Shown: positions 195 through 9,855 of the stretch, one piece after another
Layout: the number at the start of each line of letters is the position of its first letter
Numbering within the stretch: position 1 is the first letter of the stretch
Assembly (NCBI GenBank): GCA_947448415.1
Contig: CANFMT010000008.1
Coordinates: 1-64,000 of the forward strand
DNA length: 64,000 bases
From: Burkholderiaceae bacterium
Lineage (GTDB): Bacteria; Pseudomonadota; Gammaproteobacteria; Burkholderiales; Burkholderiaceae
Direction: 5' to 3'
Made by a program: the position numbers and the translations under genes
The notes under the pieces: model-generated
The model's input: the letters and a program-made list of their open reading frames with translations, nothing else
Database searches by the model: none
What the model was told of the DNA's origin: nothing

Positions 195-686
195 CTAGCG
201 GAAGCGATCTAGTAGTTTTTTACTGAGCTTATCAAGCTGCGTGGAGTCTTTAATCAAGAATTGCAAACCGTTGGAATCGGCAATTAACAATGTATTGCCC
301 GCAATTCGACGAATGTCATCTTCGCCCTTGAGACGAATGCGAGTAGGCCCGCGATCTGTTTCTATATCCCAAATACTTGGAGTAGCAAATGTAGATACCT
401 TCGTAATTTTTTCAATCACCGGCATAAATTCTCGACTAGCTAAATCTTCTTCAATCAATACCAGATCAGATTCTGGAACCACTGAGATATCAGGAAACCA
501 GCAAAGCTCTTTACCTGACTGGTCCATGATGGCAATACCGCTACTTGGAGCGGTGATCGGGAAGGCTCTGACTGGATGAACGCCAATATGCTCATGACCT
601 TTAGAATCAATCATTACAAGGCGCCCAAGAGCGTCGCGCTTTAACTGTTGACTTAGTTGCTGAATGGGTTGCTGAGCTTGACTCAT
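195..686 (-). CDS. DUF1854 family protein, cyanophycin-metabolism associated
   Basis: 163 aa ORF; ATGA overlap with upstream ABC transporter gene; position beside cphA genes matches the known DUF1854 context. Confidence 0.8.
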   Translation of the reverse strand: MSQAQQPIQQLSQQLKRDALGRLVMIDSKGHEHIGVHPVRAFPITAPSSGIAIMDQSGKELCWFPDISVVPESDLVLIEEDLASREFMPVIEKITKVSTFATPSIWDIETDRGPTRIRLKGEDDIRRIAGNTLLIADSNGLQFLIKDSTQLDKLSKKLLDRFR

Positions 687-3091
687 ACTCCTCCCCCGAT
701 TTCTTTAGCCATCACTTCAAGCTTTTCTTCTTGTTTTTCTTTTTGATCTTCTTCAATACTCTCGCCAATTGCACCACCCTCAACCAATTCAGCAGCATGA
801 CGCAATTGCGCCTGATACAGCGCATAGTACGCGCCCTGCGCATCCATTAGTTGATCGTGAGAGCCTATCTCAACTATTTCGCCCTTATCCAATACAACCA
901 AGCGATCAGCTTTTCTTAAGGTAGAAAGTCGATGGGCTATGGCAATGGTAGTACGACCCTTCACCAAGTTATCCAACGCCCGTTGAATTTCTTTTTCAGT
1001 GGTGGTATCAACCGAAGATGTTGCCTCATCCAAAATGAGGATGCTTGGATTAATCAGCAGTGCGCGCGCAATGGATATTCTTTGACGCTCACCACCAGAT
1101 AATGACTGACCACGTTCACCTACCAAGGAGTCATAACCCAAAGGCAGGCGAAGAATAAATTCATGGGCATGAGCGGCACGCGCAGCTTCGATAATTTCTT
1201 CCCGCGTAGCATCGGGTTTACCGTAAGCAATGTTCTCAGCAATCGTGCCAAAGAATAAGAATGGCTCTTGCAATACTAGGCCAATACACTTTCGGTAATC
1301 CGGAATAGCAATGCTGCGAATGTCGCGCCCATCTAAAGATACGGAACCTGAGCTCACATCATAGAAACGGCAAATTAAGTTCACTAAGGTACTCTTGCCT
1401 GATCCGCTGTGACCTACCAAACCAATCATTTCACCTGGCGCAATATCTAAATCAATGCCTTTGGAAACAGCACGGTTACCATAACGGAAGCCCACACCCT
1501 TTAGCGTAATTCGCCCTTTTACCTCACCCAATGGGGCGGGATTAATCGGCTCAGGCACGCTCGATACATGGTCTAAGATATCAAAAATTCGCTTAGCCCC
1601 AGCAGCCGCTTTTTGTGTATGGGACACAATCCGACTCATTGAATCCAAACGAATATAAAAACGTCCGATGTATGCGAGGAAGGCAATCAAGACACCAACA
1701 GTCACTTTTTGATGCGCTACTTGCCAGATGCCAAAGCCCCACACCACTAACAAGCCTGTTTCGGTAAGCAGAGTAACGGTTGGAGAGAATAATCCCCATA
1801 CGCGATTAACCCGATCATTAATTTGTAAGTTGTGTTTATTCGAATCTACGAAACGCTTTAATTCGCGATCTTCCTGTGCAAAGGCTTTAACAACGCGAAT
1901 ACCCGGAATAGTGTCAGCAAGAATATTGGTAACTTCAGACCAGATGCGATCAATCTTTTCAAAACCAAAGCGCAAACGATCTCGCACTACATGAATCATC
2001 CAGACAATGAATGGCAAAGGCGCCAAAGTCACTATAGCCAGCAAAGGATCGATCGAAACCAAAATCGCTGCGGTCATGGTGATCATCAATACATCGGTCG
2101 CAAAATCTAATGCATACAAAGATAGGAATACACAAATGCGATCTGTCTCTGCTCCAATGCGGGCAATCAAATCACCAGTTCTTTTACCGCCAAAGTACTC
2201 AAGTGAGAGTTTGAGCAAATGTTCAAAGGTGGTATTGCGAAGATCTGCGCCAATTCGCTCGCTAACCAAGGCAAGTAAATAGGTTTTCCACCAACCTAAA
2301 CCCCACGCAATAATGGCCGCTCCAAATAAAGCCAAGAGATACATGCTTGCCAAATGGAAATCTATGGGATTACCGCGCTCATAAGGAATTAAGACGTGAT
2401 CCATCAAGGGCATCGTGAGATACGGTGGAATCAGGGTGGCTCCGGTTGATAGCAGGGTTAAGACAAATCCCAGCAACAATTGTTTTTTATAGGGTCGTGC
2501 AAAGCGCCAAAGCTTAAATAAGGTCAAAGTAGATGGCGGGGCATCATCCTCAGGGTCACATGTTGGGCAGGTGTCAGAATTAGCCAGCTTGGGGCTTAAG
2601 CATATGGGGCAAACCTGCTTGTCATACTCAGTAACCTCTCCCTGGCTAACCTCCTCACCACGAGTCAATTGACGAAAGCTAGACTGCAAACGGAGAACTT
2701 GTGGGTTAACAGCAAGGGTGAAATTCCAGGATCTGAGCAAACAATCGCTTGATTCCAGGCTTAAAGTCCCCACTCCAGCGTAGTCCCCATGGACAAGGTG
2801 CTCGCCTTTGCCTAGAGGCCATGACTCAAATTGCTTTCCATCCGTCCAAAATAAGCCTCTGTCATTGAGTAATAGCAGGCTTTTTTCAAAACGTAAATTC
2901 ACATCTAAATCAAGCTCAACCCAAGCCAGTAGGGCATCGGAGTATTGGACTGGGGATTTTTCACCATCCAAAATGGGCTTCCATTCGCTTGGAAGTGTTG
3001 GGGCAAAAGGGAGGATTTCTGAACTCATTAGTCTTAAAAGTATAGTGGAGCTAGATTTTTTAGATTTATTACTCCTGTCAACTTTAAGCAC
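683..3091 (-). CDS. ABC exporter, fused permease/ATPase, with N-terminal extension containing CPIC-x10-CPTC
   Basis: Walker A GHSGSGKST, signature LSGGERQRISIARAL, Walker B ILILDEATSSVD; ABC exporter TMD; cyanophycin-associated context. Confidence 0.93.
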   Translation of the reverse strand: MLKVDRSNKSKKSSSTILLRLMSSEILPFAPTLPSEWKPILDGEKSPVQYSDALLAWVELDLDVNLRFEKSLLLLNDRGLFWTDGKQFESWPLGKGEHLVHGDYAGVGTLSLESSDCLLRSWNFTLAVNPQVLRLQSSFRQLTRGEEVSQGEVTEYDKQVCPICLSPKLANSDTCPTCDPEDDAPPSTLTLFKLWRFARPYKKQLLLGFVLTLLSTGATLIPPYLTMPLMDHVLIPYERGNPIDFHLASMYLLALFGAAIIAWGLGWWKTYLLALVSERIGADLRNTTFEHLLKLSLEYFGGKRTGDLIARIGAETDRICVFLSLYALDFATDVLMITMTAAILVSIDPLLAIVTLAPLPFIVWMIHVVRDRLRFGFEKIDRIWSEVTNILADTIPGIRVVKAFAQEDRELKRFVDSNKHNLQINDRVNRVWGLFSPTVTLLTETGLLVVWGFGIWQVAHQKVTVGVLIAFLAYIGRFYIRLDSMSRIVSHTQKAAAGAKRIFDILDHVSSVPEPINPAPLGEVKGRITLKGVGFRYGNRAVSKGIDLDIAPGEMIGLVGHSGSGKSTLVNLICRFYDVSSGSVSLDGRDIRSIAIPDYRKCIGLVLQEPFLFFGTIAENIAYGKPDATREEIIEAARAAHAHEFILRLPLGYDSLVGERGQSLSGGERQRISIARALLINPSILILDEATSSVDTTTEKEIQRALDNLVKGRTTIAIAHRLSTLRKADRLVVLDKGEIVEIGSHDQLMDAQGAYYALYQAQLRHAAELVEGGAIGESIEEDQKEKQEEKLEVMAKEIGGGV

Positions 3092-3239
3092 CAGAAAGCC
3101 GTTAAATTAACAAAATAGGATTTTTTACATATTTTTGCTAATTTTGTGAGTTTTAACTACAACTAGAAACAGAGAGACTGTCTGACGCGCCACCGCCAAT
3201 CACTGCATTACCGGCCTTGACCCTCGCAATACTGCACAC

Positions 3240-5432
3240 ATGCCCCAATTACTAGATAAATCCATTGAGATTCTGAGCGTTAAGCATCTCCGTGGCCCTA
3301 ATATGTGGACTTACCATCCCATTATTGAGGTTTGGATCGATATCGGGGATCTCGAAGATTACCCCTCCAACCTTATTCCTGGCTTTTACGAGCGTTTAGT
3401 CAAAACGCTACCTAGCCTTGTCGAGCATCGTTGCAGCTACGGAGAAACTGGTGGATTTCTAAAGCGTGTAGAGGAAGGCACTTGGCCTGCTCACATCATG
3501 GAGCACCTCACGCTTGAACTGCAAAATTTAGCAGGTATTCCTGGTGGGTTTGGTAAAGCACGTGACGGCGATCGTCGCGGTGTTTACAAAGTGATGGTGA
3601 GCGCAATTAATGAAGAGGTCACATTAACAGCTCTGAAATATGCTCGCGATCTTTACCTCATGTTGGCACAAGATAACAAAGACTGTGTTGCCGAAGTCAA
3701 AACGATTATTGAAAACCTGCGAGATATTGGCGATGATCTTTTGCTTGGCCCTAGCACTGCATGCATTGTTAATGCCGCCGAAGAACGAGGCATTCCATCC
3801 ATTCGCCTATCGGAAGGCAATTTAGTTCAACTCGGTTATGGCGCTAAGCAACGACGTATATGGACTGCTGAAACCGATCAAACGAGTGCAATTGCCGAAA
3901 CAATTTCTCGCGATAAAGATTTAACTAAGAGCCTGCTGCGTAGCGCTGGAGTCCCTACCCCAGAAGGCAGAACAGTTACCAGCCCTGATGATGCATGGGA
4001 AGCAGCTCAAGATATTGGCTTACCAGTTGTCGTGAAACCGATAGATGGCAATCATGGCCGCGGTGTCTTTATCAATTTATATATCCAACAAGAAATCGAA
4101 GCTGCTTATGCAGTTGCTATCGATGAAGGTAGCGAAGTTCTTGTAGAGCGTCATATTGTTGGCGATGAACATCGTTTACTGGTCGTTGGCAACAAAGTAG
4201 TTGCCGCAGCTAAAGGTGAAACTGTTTGGGTTACAGGTGATGGTAAGCATACTGTTTATGAGCTCATTCAAATTCAGATTAATTCTGATCCACGCCGTGG
4301 TACTGCAGAAGAGCATCCACTCAATCTTGTGCGCATTGATTCTGCAGTAGAGCTTGAACTAGCGCGTCAAAAATTAACTGGTGACAGTATTCCTGCTGCT
4401 GAACATAAAGTACTCATTCAGAGCAATGGCAATGTGGCATTTGATGTAACCGATTTAATACATCCAGATGTTGCCAGCCAAGTTGCCTTGGCAGCGCGTG
4501 TTGTTGGTCTAGAGATAGCCGGAGTTGACCTAGTAGCTCAAGATATTAGTAAGCCTCTTGCCGATCAAAATGCTGCGATTGTTGAGGTCAATGCTGGACC
4601 AGGTTTATTGATGCATTTAAAGCCTGCTAGCGGCAAACCTCAGCCCGTAGGAAAAGAAATTGCCAATCACCTCTTTCCTCCTGGTGCAGATTTTCGTATT
4701 CCGGTTGTAGGTATTTGCGGTGAACGTGGCAAAACCCCTGTCGCAGAGATGATTGCGCATTTCTTACGATTAACGAACGTTTATGTTGGCCTCTCCTGTA
4801 GCAAGGGTTTATTTTTTGGTAATCGAGCCATTCCAAATACCAATGCATCTAATTGGGAAAATGCTCGTCGCACTCTATTGAATCGCGCTGTAGAAGCTGT
4901 CGTCATCGAGAATAATCATTTGTCCATGCTGATCGAAGGCCTTGCTTACGATCGTTGCCAAGTAGGCGTTGTTTTAAATGTTGATCCTAAAGCCAACTTC
5001 CCTCAGTACGCGATATATGACGAAGACCAAGTGTTTAGCGTTGTTCGTACGCAGATTGATGTTGTATTGCCTACAGGAGTTGGTGTACTTAACGCTGATG
5101 ATCCTCTGTGCGCCCAAATGGCTGAACTTTGTGATGGTGAAGTGATTTTCTTTGGAGAAGATCCGAACTCTGAAGCGGTCAAAACGCATCTCACCAATAG
5201 CGGCCGTGCAGTGATAGTTGGCAAGCAACAGATCACTCTCAAGTCTGGTAAGCATGATCAAAAATCTATACCAGTGCCCCGCCACTCCGAGTCAGACAGC
5301 GCATCACCTTGGAAGGCCAGAAATCTCGGTGCAGCAATTGCAGCAGCCTGGGCTTTAGATATTCCATTCAACGTTATTGAAGCTGGTGCAGAAACATTTG
5401 TTCCTGATACCACAACTGCTACAGGGGCTTAA
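3240..5432 (+). CDS. cphA': Cyanophycin synthetase-like protein CphA' (ATP-grasp half retained, Mur-ligase half degenerate and truncated)
   Basis: Homologous along its length to the downstream CphA; ATP-grasp VVKPIDGNHGRGV; P-loop reads GICGERGKTP instead of GTNGKTT; lacks the C-terminal DYGHNP region. Confidence 0.88.
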   Translation: MPQLLDKSIEILSVKHLRGPNMWTYHPIIEVWIDIGDLEDYPSNLIPGFYERLVKTLPSLVEHRCSYGETGGFLKRVEEGTWPAHIMEHLTLELQNLAGIPGGFGKARDGDRRGVYKVMVSAINEEVTLTALKYARDLYLMLAQDNKDCVAEVKTIIENLRDIGDDLLLGPSTACIVNAAEERGIPSIRLSEGNLVQLGYGAKQRRIWTAETDQTSAIAETISRDKDLTKSLLRSAGVPTPEGRTVTSPDDAWEAAQDIGLPVVVKPIDGNHGRGVFINLYIQQEIEAAYAVAIDEGSEVLVERHIVGDEHRLLVVGNKVVAAAKGETVWVTGDGKHTVYELIQIQINSDPRRGTAEEHPLNLVRIDSAVELELARQKLTGDSIPAAEHKVLIQSNGNVAFDVTDLIHPDVASQVALAARVVGLEIAGVDLVAQDISKPLADQNAAIVEVNAGPGLLMHLKPASGKPQPVGKEIANHLFPPGADFRIPVVGICGERGKTPVAEMIAHFLRLTNVYVGLSCSKGLFFGNRAIPNTNASNWENARRTLLNRAVEAVVIENNHLSMLIEGLAYDRCQVGVVLNVDPKANFPQYAIYDEDQVFSVVRTQIDVVLPTGVGVLNADDPLCAQMAELCDGEVIFFGEDPNSEAVKTHLTNSGRAVIVGKQQITLKSGKHDQKSIPVPRHSESDSASPWKARNLGAAIAAAWALDIPFNVIEAGAETFVPDTTTATGA

Positions 5433-8003
5433 TTGGAAATCACCCGTATTCGTATGTTGCGCGGCCCAAATTTATGGAGTCGCCACACCGCTTTAGAGGC
5501 AATAGTTTCTTGCGATGAGTCTGAGAGATCCATCGACTCCATCCCTCAGTTTGAAAACAAAATTCGTGAACGTTTTCCACAATTGGGCAGCATGCGTCGC
5601 GGAGGACATAATGAGGTCCTCTCACTTGCCCATGCGCTTGAGCATGCCGCTCTGGGTCTGCAGGCTCAAGCGGGTTGTCCAGTTACTTTTAGTCGCACCG
5701 TTCAAACGATTGATGTAGGCGTATACCAAGTTGTCGTTGAATATATTGAAGAAGTTGTTGGTCGCATGGCTTTTGACTTTGGCTTTGCCCTCATTCAGGC
5801 GACTTTGAATGATGCTCCATTTGATTTGGCGGCTGCCCTCTCAGAGTTAGAGGCTCTTTATGAAGATGTGCGCCTTGGCCCAAGCACCGGCTCCATCGTT
5901 GATGCAGCCGTGCAACGCAATATCCCTTACCGCCGCATGACCGAAGGCAGTATGGTTCAGTTTGGTTGGGGGAGCAAACAAAAACGTATTCAGGCTGCCG
6001 AGACCAGTGACACGAGCGCAATTGCTGAAGCTATTGCTCAAGATAAAGAATTAACAAAAAATCTGCTAGCGGCTGCCGGCGTATCTGTGCCCATTGGTGA
6101 AGTTGTTACTACTGCCGATGATGCTTGGCGTGCAGCACAAAAAATTGGTGGCCCTATCGTACTCAAGCCTAAGGATGGCAATCAAGGTAAAGGAGTTGTA
6201 GCAAACATCCAAACCGAAGAAGAGGTGCGCGCAGGATTTATCGTGACGCAAGCCTTTGGACGTGAAACGATTGTTGAGCGTTATTTACCAGGCGCCGACT
6301 ATCGCCTACTCGTTGTTGGCAACCGCCTTTCTGCAGCAGCCCGTCGTGAACCAGCACAAGTAGTTGGCGATGGTACACATACCGTTGCTGAACTTGTTGA
6401 AATGGAAAACAAAAATCCATTACGCGGCGACGGCCATGCTACCGCATTAACCAAAATTCGCTTTGATGATATTGCCCTTGCGCATTTAGCAAGTTCAGGC
6501 TTGTCGCCAAAACATGTGCCTAAAACTGGTGAGCGCGTACTCTTACGCAATAACGCCAACCTCAGCACTGGTGGCACTGCCACGGATGTGACTGATGATG
6601 TTCACCCTGATGTAGCTGCAAGCGCAGTAGCGGCAGCTCAAATGATTGGTTTAGATATTGCCGGTGTGGATATTCTTTGTGAATCTATTTACAAACCATT
6701 AGAGCAGCAGGGTGGCGGCATTGTCGAAGTTAATGCTGCGCCTGGATTACGCATGCACCTGAAGCCGTCATACGGCAAAGGTCGCCCCGTAGGTGAGGAC
6801 ATTATCAATATGATGTTCCCTCCTGGAGAAGATGGACGCATCCCAGTAGTGGCAGTTACGGGCACCAACGGCAAAACGACCACTGTTCGCCTGATCTCAC
6901 ACCTCTTAAACGAAACCGGTCTGCGTGTAGGCATGACTGGTACCGATGGCGTCTACATCAACCATCGCTTAATTGACACTGGTGACTGCAGTGGTCCAAA
7001 GAGTGCGCGCAATGTATTGATGCACCCTGATGTAGATGCTGCAGTACTCGAGACTGCGCGTGGAGGTCTATTGCGAGAGGGTCTAGGCTTTGATCGTTGC
7101 GAAGTAGCTGTAGTGACCAACATTGGAGAAGGCGATCACCTAGGACTGAATTATATTAGCAGTGTAGAAGATTTAGCCGTTCTTAAACGAGTCATTGTGC
7201 AAAACGTTGCACCAACTGGCGCAGCTGTGCTCAATGCAGCTGATCCAATGGTTGCCAAAATGGGTGACAAATGCTCTGGCCGTGTGATCTTCTTTGCCCA
7301 AAACCAACATCATCCAGTCATTACCGCGCATCGCGCCAAGAATAAAAAAGTAATCTATTTTGATGGCGCTTACATTGTCGCCTCCAAAGGGTCTCGTGTG
7401 ATGTATCGCTTCCCAGTGAGTGAGATTCCATTGACTCAAAATGGTGTTCTAGGCTTCCAAATTGAAAACGCTATGGCTGCTATCGGCGCTGCCTGGGCAT
7501 TAGGATTGGATGCAGAAAAGATTGCGCGCGGTCTTCATAGTTTTGAAAGTGATGCTAATTCTGTGCCGGGTCGCTTTAATCAATTCCAGCACAATGGCGC
7601 TACCGTAATTGCTGATTACGGTCACAACCCGGATGCGATGCGCGCCCTCACTAGCGCTATTGAGGCGATGAAGCCTAAAAAGAGTCACGTAGTCATTAGT
7701 GGTGCAGGTGACCGACGTGATGAAGATATTCGTGATCTGACACGCATTCTGGGGAATGCTTTTGATAACGTCATCCTCTACCAAGACGCTTGTCAGCGTG
7801 GTCGTGAAGATGGTGAAGTTCTTAAGCTTTTGCAAGAAGGATTGGTTGGCACTACTAAAGCCAAGCAGATCAAAGAGATTCATGGGGAATTTAATGCGAT
7901 CGATACCGCATTAAATGACATCTCCGCTGGAGATATTTGCCTCATCCTTATTGACCAAGTAGAAGAATCGCTAGCCTATCTCAAGGAAAAGGTTAAACCT
8001 TAA
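5433..8003 (+). CDS. cphA: Cyanophycin synthetase CphA
   Basis: 856 aa; LRGPNLWSRHTALEA N-terminus, ATP-grasp KPKDGNQGKGV, Mur ligase GTNGKTTT and DYGHNPDAM motifs; TTG start directly after the cphA' stop. Confidence 0.95.
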   Translation: MEITRIRMLRGPNLWSRHTALEAIVSCDESERSIDSIPQFENKIRERFPQLGSMRRGGHNEVLSLAHALEHAALGLQAQAGCPVTFSRTVQTIDVGVYQVVVEYIEEVVGRMAFDFGFALIQATLNDAPFDLAAALSELEALYEDVRLGPSTGSIVDAAVQRNIPYRRMTEGSMVQFGWGSKQKRIQAAETSDTSAIAEAIAQDKELTKNLLAAAGVSVPIGEVVTTADDAWRAAQKIGGPIVLKPKDGNQGKGVVANIQTEEEVRAGFIVTQAFGRETIVERYLPGADYRLLVVGNRLSAAARREPAQVVGDGTHTVAELVEMENKNPLRGDGHATALTKIRFDDIALAHLASSGLSPKHVPKTGERVLLRNNANLSTGGTATDVTDDVHPDVAASAVAAAQMIGLDIAGVDILCESIYKPLEQQGGGIVEVNAAPGLRMHLKPSYGKGRPVGEDIINMMFPPGEDGRIPVVAVTGTNGKTTTVRLISHLLNETGLRVGMTGTDGVYINHRLIDTGDCSGPKSARNVLMHPDVDAAVLETARGGLLREGLGFDRCEVAVVTNIGEGDHLGLNYISSVEDLAVLKRVIVQNVAPTGAAVLNAADPMVAKMGDKCSGRVIFFAQNQHHPVITAHRAKNKKVIYFDGAYIVASKGSRVMYRFPVSEIPLTQNGVLGFQIENAMAAIGAAWALGLDAEKIARGLHSFESDANSVPGRFNQFQHNGATVIADYGHNPDAMRALTSAIEAMKPKKSHVVISGAGDRRDEDIRDLTRILGNAFDNVILYQDACQRGREDGEVLKLLQEGLVGTTKAKQIKEIHGEFNAIDTALNDISAGDICLILIDQVEESLAYLKEKVKP

Positions 8004-8035: not shown

Positions 8036-8065
8036 AAAAAAGCCCAATCAATGATTGGGCTTTTT
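8036..8065. terminator. Bidirectional rho-independent terminator between convergent cphA and fbp
   Basis: aaaaaAGCCCAATCAatgATTGGGCTttttt: stem flanked by A-run and T-run. Confidence 0.9.
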
Positions 8066-9265: not shown

Positions 9266-9472
9266 ATGAGAACTACAGTCACCATAGACGATGATCTATA
9301 CCAAAGAGGATTGGATCTAGCGGATCCAGGAATGGACAAAGCCGATCTGTTTCGAGAAGCCATCAATGTTTTTATTCGCGTTCAAGTTGCCAAGCGACTT
9401 GCAGCTCTTGGTGGCCAGTCACCGCAAATGAAGGCAATTCCTCGCCGTAGACCAAAAGATGGGCAGAATTGA
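9266..9472 (+). CDS. vapB: Type II toxin-antitoxin antitoxin, VapB family
   Basis: [15 protein letters not shown] ribbon-helix-helix-like N-terminus; overlaps the PIN-domain gene by 4 nt. Confidence 0.85.
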
Positions 9473-9855
9473 TGACGATGGTTCTAGTGGATACATCTGT
9501 ATGGGTTGCCCATTTTAGAAAATCAAATGCCTCATTTGAATCTCTTCTCGTCAATGATCAAGTCCTATGTCATCCCTTAGTTTTAATTGAGCTGGCATGC
9601 GGAACTCCACCTGCACCAAGATTGAAATTCTTAAGTAATATTCAAAAACTACAACCAGCGACAGTAGCAACGCCAGATGAAACCCTGGAGTTTATTGAAA
9701 AACATCAACTGCATGAATCTGGTTGTGGCGCAATTGATGTTTCGCTCCTGTCTTCAACCCTACTCTCAAAAAATGCTTTACTTTGGACGCTTGATAAGCA
9801 CTTGGAAAATCTTGCAAATCGATTAGGCATTTCTTACGCCAGCAAACTTCACTAA
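9469..9855 (+). CDS. vapC: PIN-domain ribonuclease toxin, VapC family
   Basis: [14 protein letters not shown]-terminus and conserved acidic residues of PIN domain; follows vapB. Confidence 0.87.

Follow-up and report, generated by a model that had tools for sequence, protein, structure and literature searches.

The ABC protein and the DUF1854 protein encoded beside 2 cyanophycin synthetase genes at one end of the window (the whole stretch of 64,000 nucleotides analyzed here) form, together with these synthetases, a set of 4 genes that is well supported as an obligate module. The link is to a two-gene, split synthetase, consisting of the proteins CphA' and CphA, and not to cphA or cyanophycin genes in general, a distinction that was overlooked in the original prediction. 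The resulting branch of cyanophycin metabolism, which is free of cyanophycinase, has its synthetase divided in two, and comes with its own pump, is a distinct variant. That the split synthetase makes a product that is exported by the ABC/DUF1854 pump in this branch is the best explanation we have for the module, and one that has about an even chance of being correct.

The window is the start of a contig in a genome of 2.09 Mb (30 contigs, 85% complete), and the named loci closest to the one studied here are those of Polynucleobacter. The host is a small freshwater bacterium. The ORFs for DUF1854, the ABC protein, CphA', and CphA were all found to be intact at the coordinates given in Table 1. 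Their layout is the one originally described: the plus-strand sequence of bases 683–686 is TCAT, corresponding to the ATGA on the minus strand by which the DUF1854 and ABC genes overlap, and this pair is divergent from cphA'-cphA (3240–8003), in which the start of cphA (5433) immediately follows the stop of cphA' (5432). The shared intergenic region, which had been put at roughly 150 bp, is probably longer. Across 32 aligned Polynucleobacter loci, an ATG at 3028 is conserved, and the GTG at 3091 falls within intergenic DNA that is itself conserved. Based on this alignment, the ABC gene probably starts at the ATG rather than at the GTG, which gives a protein of 781 aa and an intergenic region of approximately 211 bp.

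Table 1. Features of the cyanophycin synthetase/ABC/DUF1854 locus, in positions of the window.
Feature	Coordinates	Strand	Remarks
DUF1854 protein (NF052234, CphA_assoc_prot), 163 aa	195..686	-	Profile match; AlphaFold2 mean pLDDT 90.5
CphA-associated ABC exporter (NF052233)	683..3028	-	ATG start at 3028 likely; GTG start from ORF tool at 3091
Nucleotide-binding domain (PF00005) of ABC protein; Walker A, signature, and Walker B intact	1016..1462	-	Largely invariant in 47 members
Transmembrane domain of ABC protein, type IV exporter fold (PF00664)	1664..2479	-	
Zinc-ribbon-like CPxC-x10-CPxC segment of ABC protein	2558..2611	-	First two Cys in 40/47 members; all four in family consensus
Putative N-terminal PH-like domain of ABC protein, seven strands and C-terminal helix	2648..2932	-	AlphaFold2 secondary structure; block pLDDT mostly 87–95
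Divergent intergenic region, common to ABC and cphA' genes	3029..3239	.	Partly conserved in Polynucleobacter
cphA', 730 aa: N domain and ATP-grasp core; degenerate Mur-type half, no C-terminal lid	3240..5432	+	
Cx19HxxEH primer-generating protease motif in CphA'	3432..3506	+	Invariant in 55/55 paired-system CphA'; function per PMC9262961
cphA, 856 aa: aspartate- and arginine-adding sites complete, primer-generating motif lost	5433..8003	+	
Aspartate-recognition loop NANLSTGG of CphA; absent from CphA' by deletion	6552..6575	+	Alignment; roles per PMC9427784
P-loop GTNGKTT for ATP (Mur type) of CphA; eroded in most CphA'	6861..6881	+	Alignment
Strong hairpin flanked by runs of A and T, located between cphA and convergent fbp-like (fructose-bisphosphatase-like) gene	8036..8065	.	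Sequence read directly

Within the intergenic region and upstream of the ABC gene, positions 3040–3110, which include TAAAAGTATAGT-GGAGC ... CTGTCAACTTTA, are strongly conserved across Polynucleobacter and may represent a promoter or operator. A scan for sigma-70 promoters found sites to be rarer than in shuffled sequence. A gene for tRNA-Thr (CGT) is located at 104–179 on the minus strand. It follows the stop codon of the DUF1854 gene, which has the same orientation, at a distance of 15 bp, and may share a transcript with the ABC/DUF1854 pair; a search for RNA regulators near the locus returned this tRNA only. The hairpin at the other end of the locus is likely a bidirectional terminator that cphA shares with the fbp-like gene, and a 128-aa ORF at 9469–9855 on the plus strand resembles, by eye, a PIN-domain (VapC-type) protein.

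To map how strictly the 4 genes occur together, a census was taken of 250 genomes of the order, all of which are at least 95% complete except for the window's own. The DUF1854 gene was detected in 91 genomes, the ABC gene in the identical 91, and cphA-type genes in 99. At least 2 cphA-type genes were present in all 91 genomes that carry the ABC/DUF1854 pair, and none of the 8 genomes with a single cphA carried the pair. The association of the pair with at least 2 cphA genes yields a Fisher p of approximately 1e-70, a value that is uncorrected for phylogeny and treats related genomes as if they were independent. The 91 genomes come from 26 families, and presence and absence both occur within at least 10 of these. 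In several genomes, the synthetase pair was far from the ABC pair, yet present. Within named loci, all 4 genes fell inside the fetched stretch in 66 out of 80 cases, and the layouts that were measured were mostly divergent, with a few co-directional ones. In 8 further genomes, the surroundings of the ABC/DUF1854 genes showed no cphA, but 2 cphA genes were present elsewhere in each of them (8/8). Frequent occurrence of the ABC/DUF1854 pair without cphA, which had been named beforehand as the outcome that would speak against a dedicated link to cyanophycin synthetase, was thus seen in 0 of the 91 genomes of the order and 0 of the 8 further ones, and the census supports that link.

Among the recurring neighbors of the locus, no further family was recognized as belonging to the unit; the largest neighbor clusters read as antisense ORFs of the 4 genes themselves, and smaller ones as local synteny. 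Origin from a mobile element or plasmid was considered and rejected, with no plasmid match found and no insertion sequence recognized among these neighbors. One locus (L072, on contig C9) was found in a genome of another class, G117, where the ABC and DUF1854 genes lie beside a single CphA1 with all 3 sites. This genome, which is 93% complete and 8% contaminated, was the only match among 48 genomes of its class, and its single CphA is sister to CphA' (support 99/98). As the GC content of the contig carrying the locus is that of 3 other contigs sampled, the locus may be a remnant from before the split, although it may also be a contaminant. Because the pair adjoins a single, complete CphA1 in this case, the split of the synthetase is not essential to the link with ABC/DUF1854.

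The association of cphA with ABC/DUF1854 is itself already known and the cluster has been catalogued; what is new is the strictness of the association. The NCBIfam equivalog models NF052233 and NF052234 are named cyanophycin metabolism-associated ABC transporter and DUF1854 protein, respectively, and name the association only. The proteins of the window score far above the cutoffs of these models (1321.5 bits against a curated cutoff of 880 for the ABC protein, and 213 bits against 150 for the DUF1854 protein). The latter also matches PF08909 with 153 bits (cutoff 26.8), and the 2 synthetases match NF010623 with 1009 and 1233 bits (cutoff 877). Beyond what the NCBIfam models state, we add the putative PH-like/zinc-ribbon N-terminus of the ABC protein, the finding that the link is restricted to paired synthetases, and the absence of CphB. 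A “Group 1” cluster reported from activated-sludge bacteria in 2023 resembles the locus of the window in having 2 cphA genes and an ABC transporter gene, without cphB (PMC10687191). DUF1854 was not named there and a composite transposon was suggested, whereas in our survey no insertion sequence was recognized among the recurring neighbors and no plasmid copy was found. Adjacent CphA1 and CphA2 have been described in Sideroxydans, in a study that noted the lack of any known cyanophycinase in Betaproteobacteria and proposed an alternative degradation pathway (PMC5178258). The word DUF1854 was not mentioned in the literature searched.

The division of labor within the split synthetase can be read against the characterized sites of CphA1. 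The N domain of CphA1 contains a Cx19HxxEH metallopeptidase site that makes primers, a motif that is present in 83% of CphA1 proteins and lacking in CphA2 (PMC9262961). The G domain recognizes aspartate via R323, N394, S396, and R458. Arginine is added by the M domain, which relies for this on a P-loop and a mobile lid (PMC9427784). When these residues were mapped in alignments of 55 CphA' and 52 CphA proteins from paired systems, the predicted active sites of the two turned out to be complementary, each lacking what the other keeps, a relationship that had also been overlooked in the original prediction. CphA' has kept the primer-making motif, but its aspartate pocket and arginine-adding half are gone, and CphA shows the reverse. 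In CphA', the position of R323 is taken by Gly (54/55) or Ser (1/55), S396 is deleted in 55/55, and R458 is replaced by Leu in 53/55, so that 3 of the 4 aspartate-contact residues are lost. An intact Mur P-loop pattern was found in only 5/55 of these proteins, the one from the window not among them, and the DYGHN lid motif in 0/55. In CphA, equivalents of R309, R323, N394, S396, R458, K499, and T500 are present in 52/52, the full Cx19HxxEH motif is present in 0/52, and Gln replaces His267 in a loop of the G domain in 51/52.

The same complementarity was observed in genomes whose synthetases are not beside the ABC pair, and in a phylogenetic tree CphA', CphA, and classic CphA1 formed 3 separate groups, each with support of 100/100. 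CphA' resembles the dipeptide-polymerizing CphA2 of cyanobacteria in its loss of the M-domain P-loop and lid, but differs from it in having kept Cx19HxxEH; since this N-domain protease motif is present in 55/55 sequences, CphA' was not filed as CphA2. The CphA of the window, in turn, is like CphA1 in the residues of its G and M domains, but lacks the primer-generating motif.

The classic CphA1-CphB(-IaaA) storage system uses a synthetase of the same superfamily as the split system, and probably the same monomers. It differs in that its CphA1 belongs to a separate clade (100/100), that CphB is mostly encoded near cphA, and that IaaA is mostly encoded beside CphB. Neither cphB nor an isoaspartyl dipeptidase gene had been recognized in the window, and this absence extends beyond the window to the genome as far as it is assembled (85% complete), in which we found no match to TIGR02069 (cyanophycinase) or to PF01112/IaaA, and only a 20-bit fragment of IadA. 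No cyanophycinase and no IaaA were found either in 3 genomes of the same genus that are listed as 100% complete, and the cyanophycinase that marks a genome with a classic CphA1-CphB locus, usually near cphA, was thus not detected in the window's genome or in these 3. Among the genomes of the order with a single cphA, a strong CphB match (at least 230 bits) was present in 8/8 and IaaA in 8/8, with CphB near cphA in 7/8 and IaaA adjoining CphB in most. Strong CphB matches were present in just 3 of the 91 ABC-type genomes, and those 3 hold 2 additional cphA genes next to CphB. In the 88 genomes that have the ABC-type system alone (paired-only genomes), no strong CphB was found (0/88), with weaker, above-cutoff S51 matches in 4/88. 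IaaA was detected in 23/88, and 62/88 contained neither an above-cutoff CphB nor IaaA.

The ABC protein carries PF00664 and PF00005 on one chain, its ATPase motifs are intact, and its fold neighbors are of type IV; it is therefore, by class, a type IV exporter, which supports the original assignment to the exporters. Some exporter-fold ABC proteins are importers. Because each chain has one transmembrane and one ATPase domain, the protein should act as a homodimer. The core shares its transmembrane and ATPase domains and its overall fold with TM287/288, Sav1866, TmrAB, and MsbA, from all of which the protein differs by an extra, putative PH-like domain and a zinc-ribbon-like segment. The PH-like topology of the cytosolic N-terminus (residues 54–148 in GTG-start numbering) is a prediction from the structural model; matches at the sequence level were weak, with bPH_3 found in 6/45 members (best E 0.018), GRAM in one, and VPS36 as the best, but also weak, PDB profile match (E 0.16). 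The protein stays below the cutoffs of both the MsbA family (TIGR02203; 444 bits, cutoff 602) and HlyB type I secretion (TIGR01846; 401 bits, cutoff 725.55), and no C39-type domain was detected in it by Pfam. Conserved charges in the transmembrane domain were considered as a clue to the substrate and set aside, with D333 and E444 having an acidic counterpart in Sav1866 and thus being nondiagnostic; the conserved acidic residues in this domain are partly common to Sav1866 and offer no hint of an arginine-rich substrate. For the model of the DUF1854 protein, no convincing fold match was found in the PDB. The polo box fold of Plk4, its best Foldseek match, was rejected (E 1e-3, but a TM of 0.2), as was homology to the N-terminus of the ABC protein (profile-profile probability of only 4%).

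Taken further, the export of a product by this module leads to a more specific model, which we put forward tentatively: cyanophycin in these Betaproteobacteria may be secreted rather than stored, with a two-subunit synthetase feeding the ABC exporter via a platform of the PH-like/zinc-ribbon region and DUF1854. In the export reading as such, the N-domain protease of CphA', of which the motif is present, would cut existing chains into primers and supply these to CphA, and by known chemistry CphA' would itself add neither aspartate nor arginine. CphA, judging from its motifs, would add both and would be unable to make primers. The product would most likely consist of short or soluble β-Asp-Arg chains, which the presumed homodimeric type IV exporter would move out of the cytoplasm. 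DUF1854 and the N-terminus of the ABC protein would serve as a cytosolic docking platform that brings the synthetase or its product to the pump. In this way, the 4 genes would replace the intracellular route via cyanophycinase and isoaspartyl dipeptidase. The neighbor survey found no outer-membrane or periplasmic adaptor recurring beside the genes, which leaves delivery beyond the periplasm unexplained and counts against full secretion. It is also possible that the known cyanophycinase families are not the sole degraders, which is a further point against reading the module as an export system.

In a second reading, the polymer is an intracellular store, the ABC and DUF1854 proteins tether or regulate the synthetase or import Asp-Arg units, and an unrecognized enzyme, perhaps the N domain of CphA' together with general peptidases, mobilizes the store. 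The N-domain motif of CphA' is indeed that of an endo-cyanophycinase, the PH-like and zinc-ribbon domains fused to the exporter have the look of regulatory or docking modules, IaaA occurs in a minority of paired-only genomes (23/88), and an alternative degradation pathway has been proposed for Betaproteobacteria (PMC5178258). We nevertheless regard this reading as unlikely, because the ABC protein belongs to a type IV exporter family and retains its ATPase motifs, and because known degradation genes are absent from most paired genomes. R. eutropha, moreover, has 2 synthetase homologs, and no cyanophycin has been observed in its wild type (PMC11362209), an observation that is more easily reconciled with export or with a different product than with a stored granule.

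The same observation in R. eutropha leaves room for a different product, namely another amino-acid polymer or conjugate, which would be assembled by the CphA-like ligases and leave through the dedicated pump. The loss of 3 of the 4 aspartate contacts in CphA' and the Gln in place of His267 in CphA (51/52) would agree with such a product, but CphA retains all tested aspartate-recognition residues as well as the Mur-type P-loop, and both synthetases score above the NF010623 cutoff, which together make this reading rather improbable. Finally, the best general matches of the ABC protein are MsbA, HlyB, and multidrug exporters, as would be expected if it were a general MsbA-like lipid or drug exporter that came to lie beside cphA by accident of gene order. 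This idea is close to refuted by the presence/absence pattern, which matches that of paired cphA genes perfectly, unlinked cases included, and by the score of 444 for MsbA (cutoff 602) against 1321 for the dedicated model.

How Betaproteobacteria recover nitrogen from cyanophycin without a cyanophycinase is an open question (PMC5178258), which has now become testable. The census draws a sharp divide between classic CphA1 with CphB and IaaA on one side, and split CphA'/CphA with the ABC and DUF1854 proteins on the other. In the latter, the polymer may be passed out of the cytoplasm or dealt with at the membrane instead of simply being stored, which could account for the lack of detectable cyanophycin in native R. 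eutropha. If the secretion model is true, secreted cyanophycin would be a case of synthesis-coupled export of a nonribosomal polypeptide, and the absence of cyanophycinase would be explained. DUF1854 gains a functional context from these results, and they advise caution for wastewater and freshwater bacteria, in which cphA alone is a poor basis for inferring an intracellular nitrogen store.

The classic clusters showed a feature of their own. In 5 of them (L155, L158, L159, L160, and L161), a second gene, encoding a protein of approximately 580 aa with Mur_ligase_M and Mur_ligase_C domains, was found beside the single cphA, followed by cphB and the gene for IaaA. From its domains, this protein is possibly a second ligase of the classic system.
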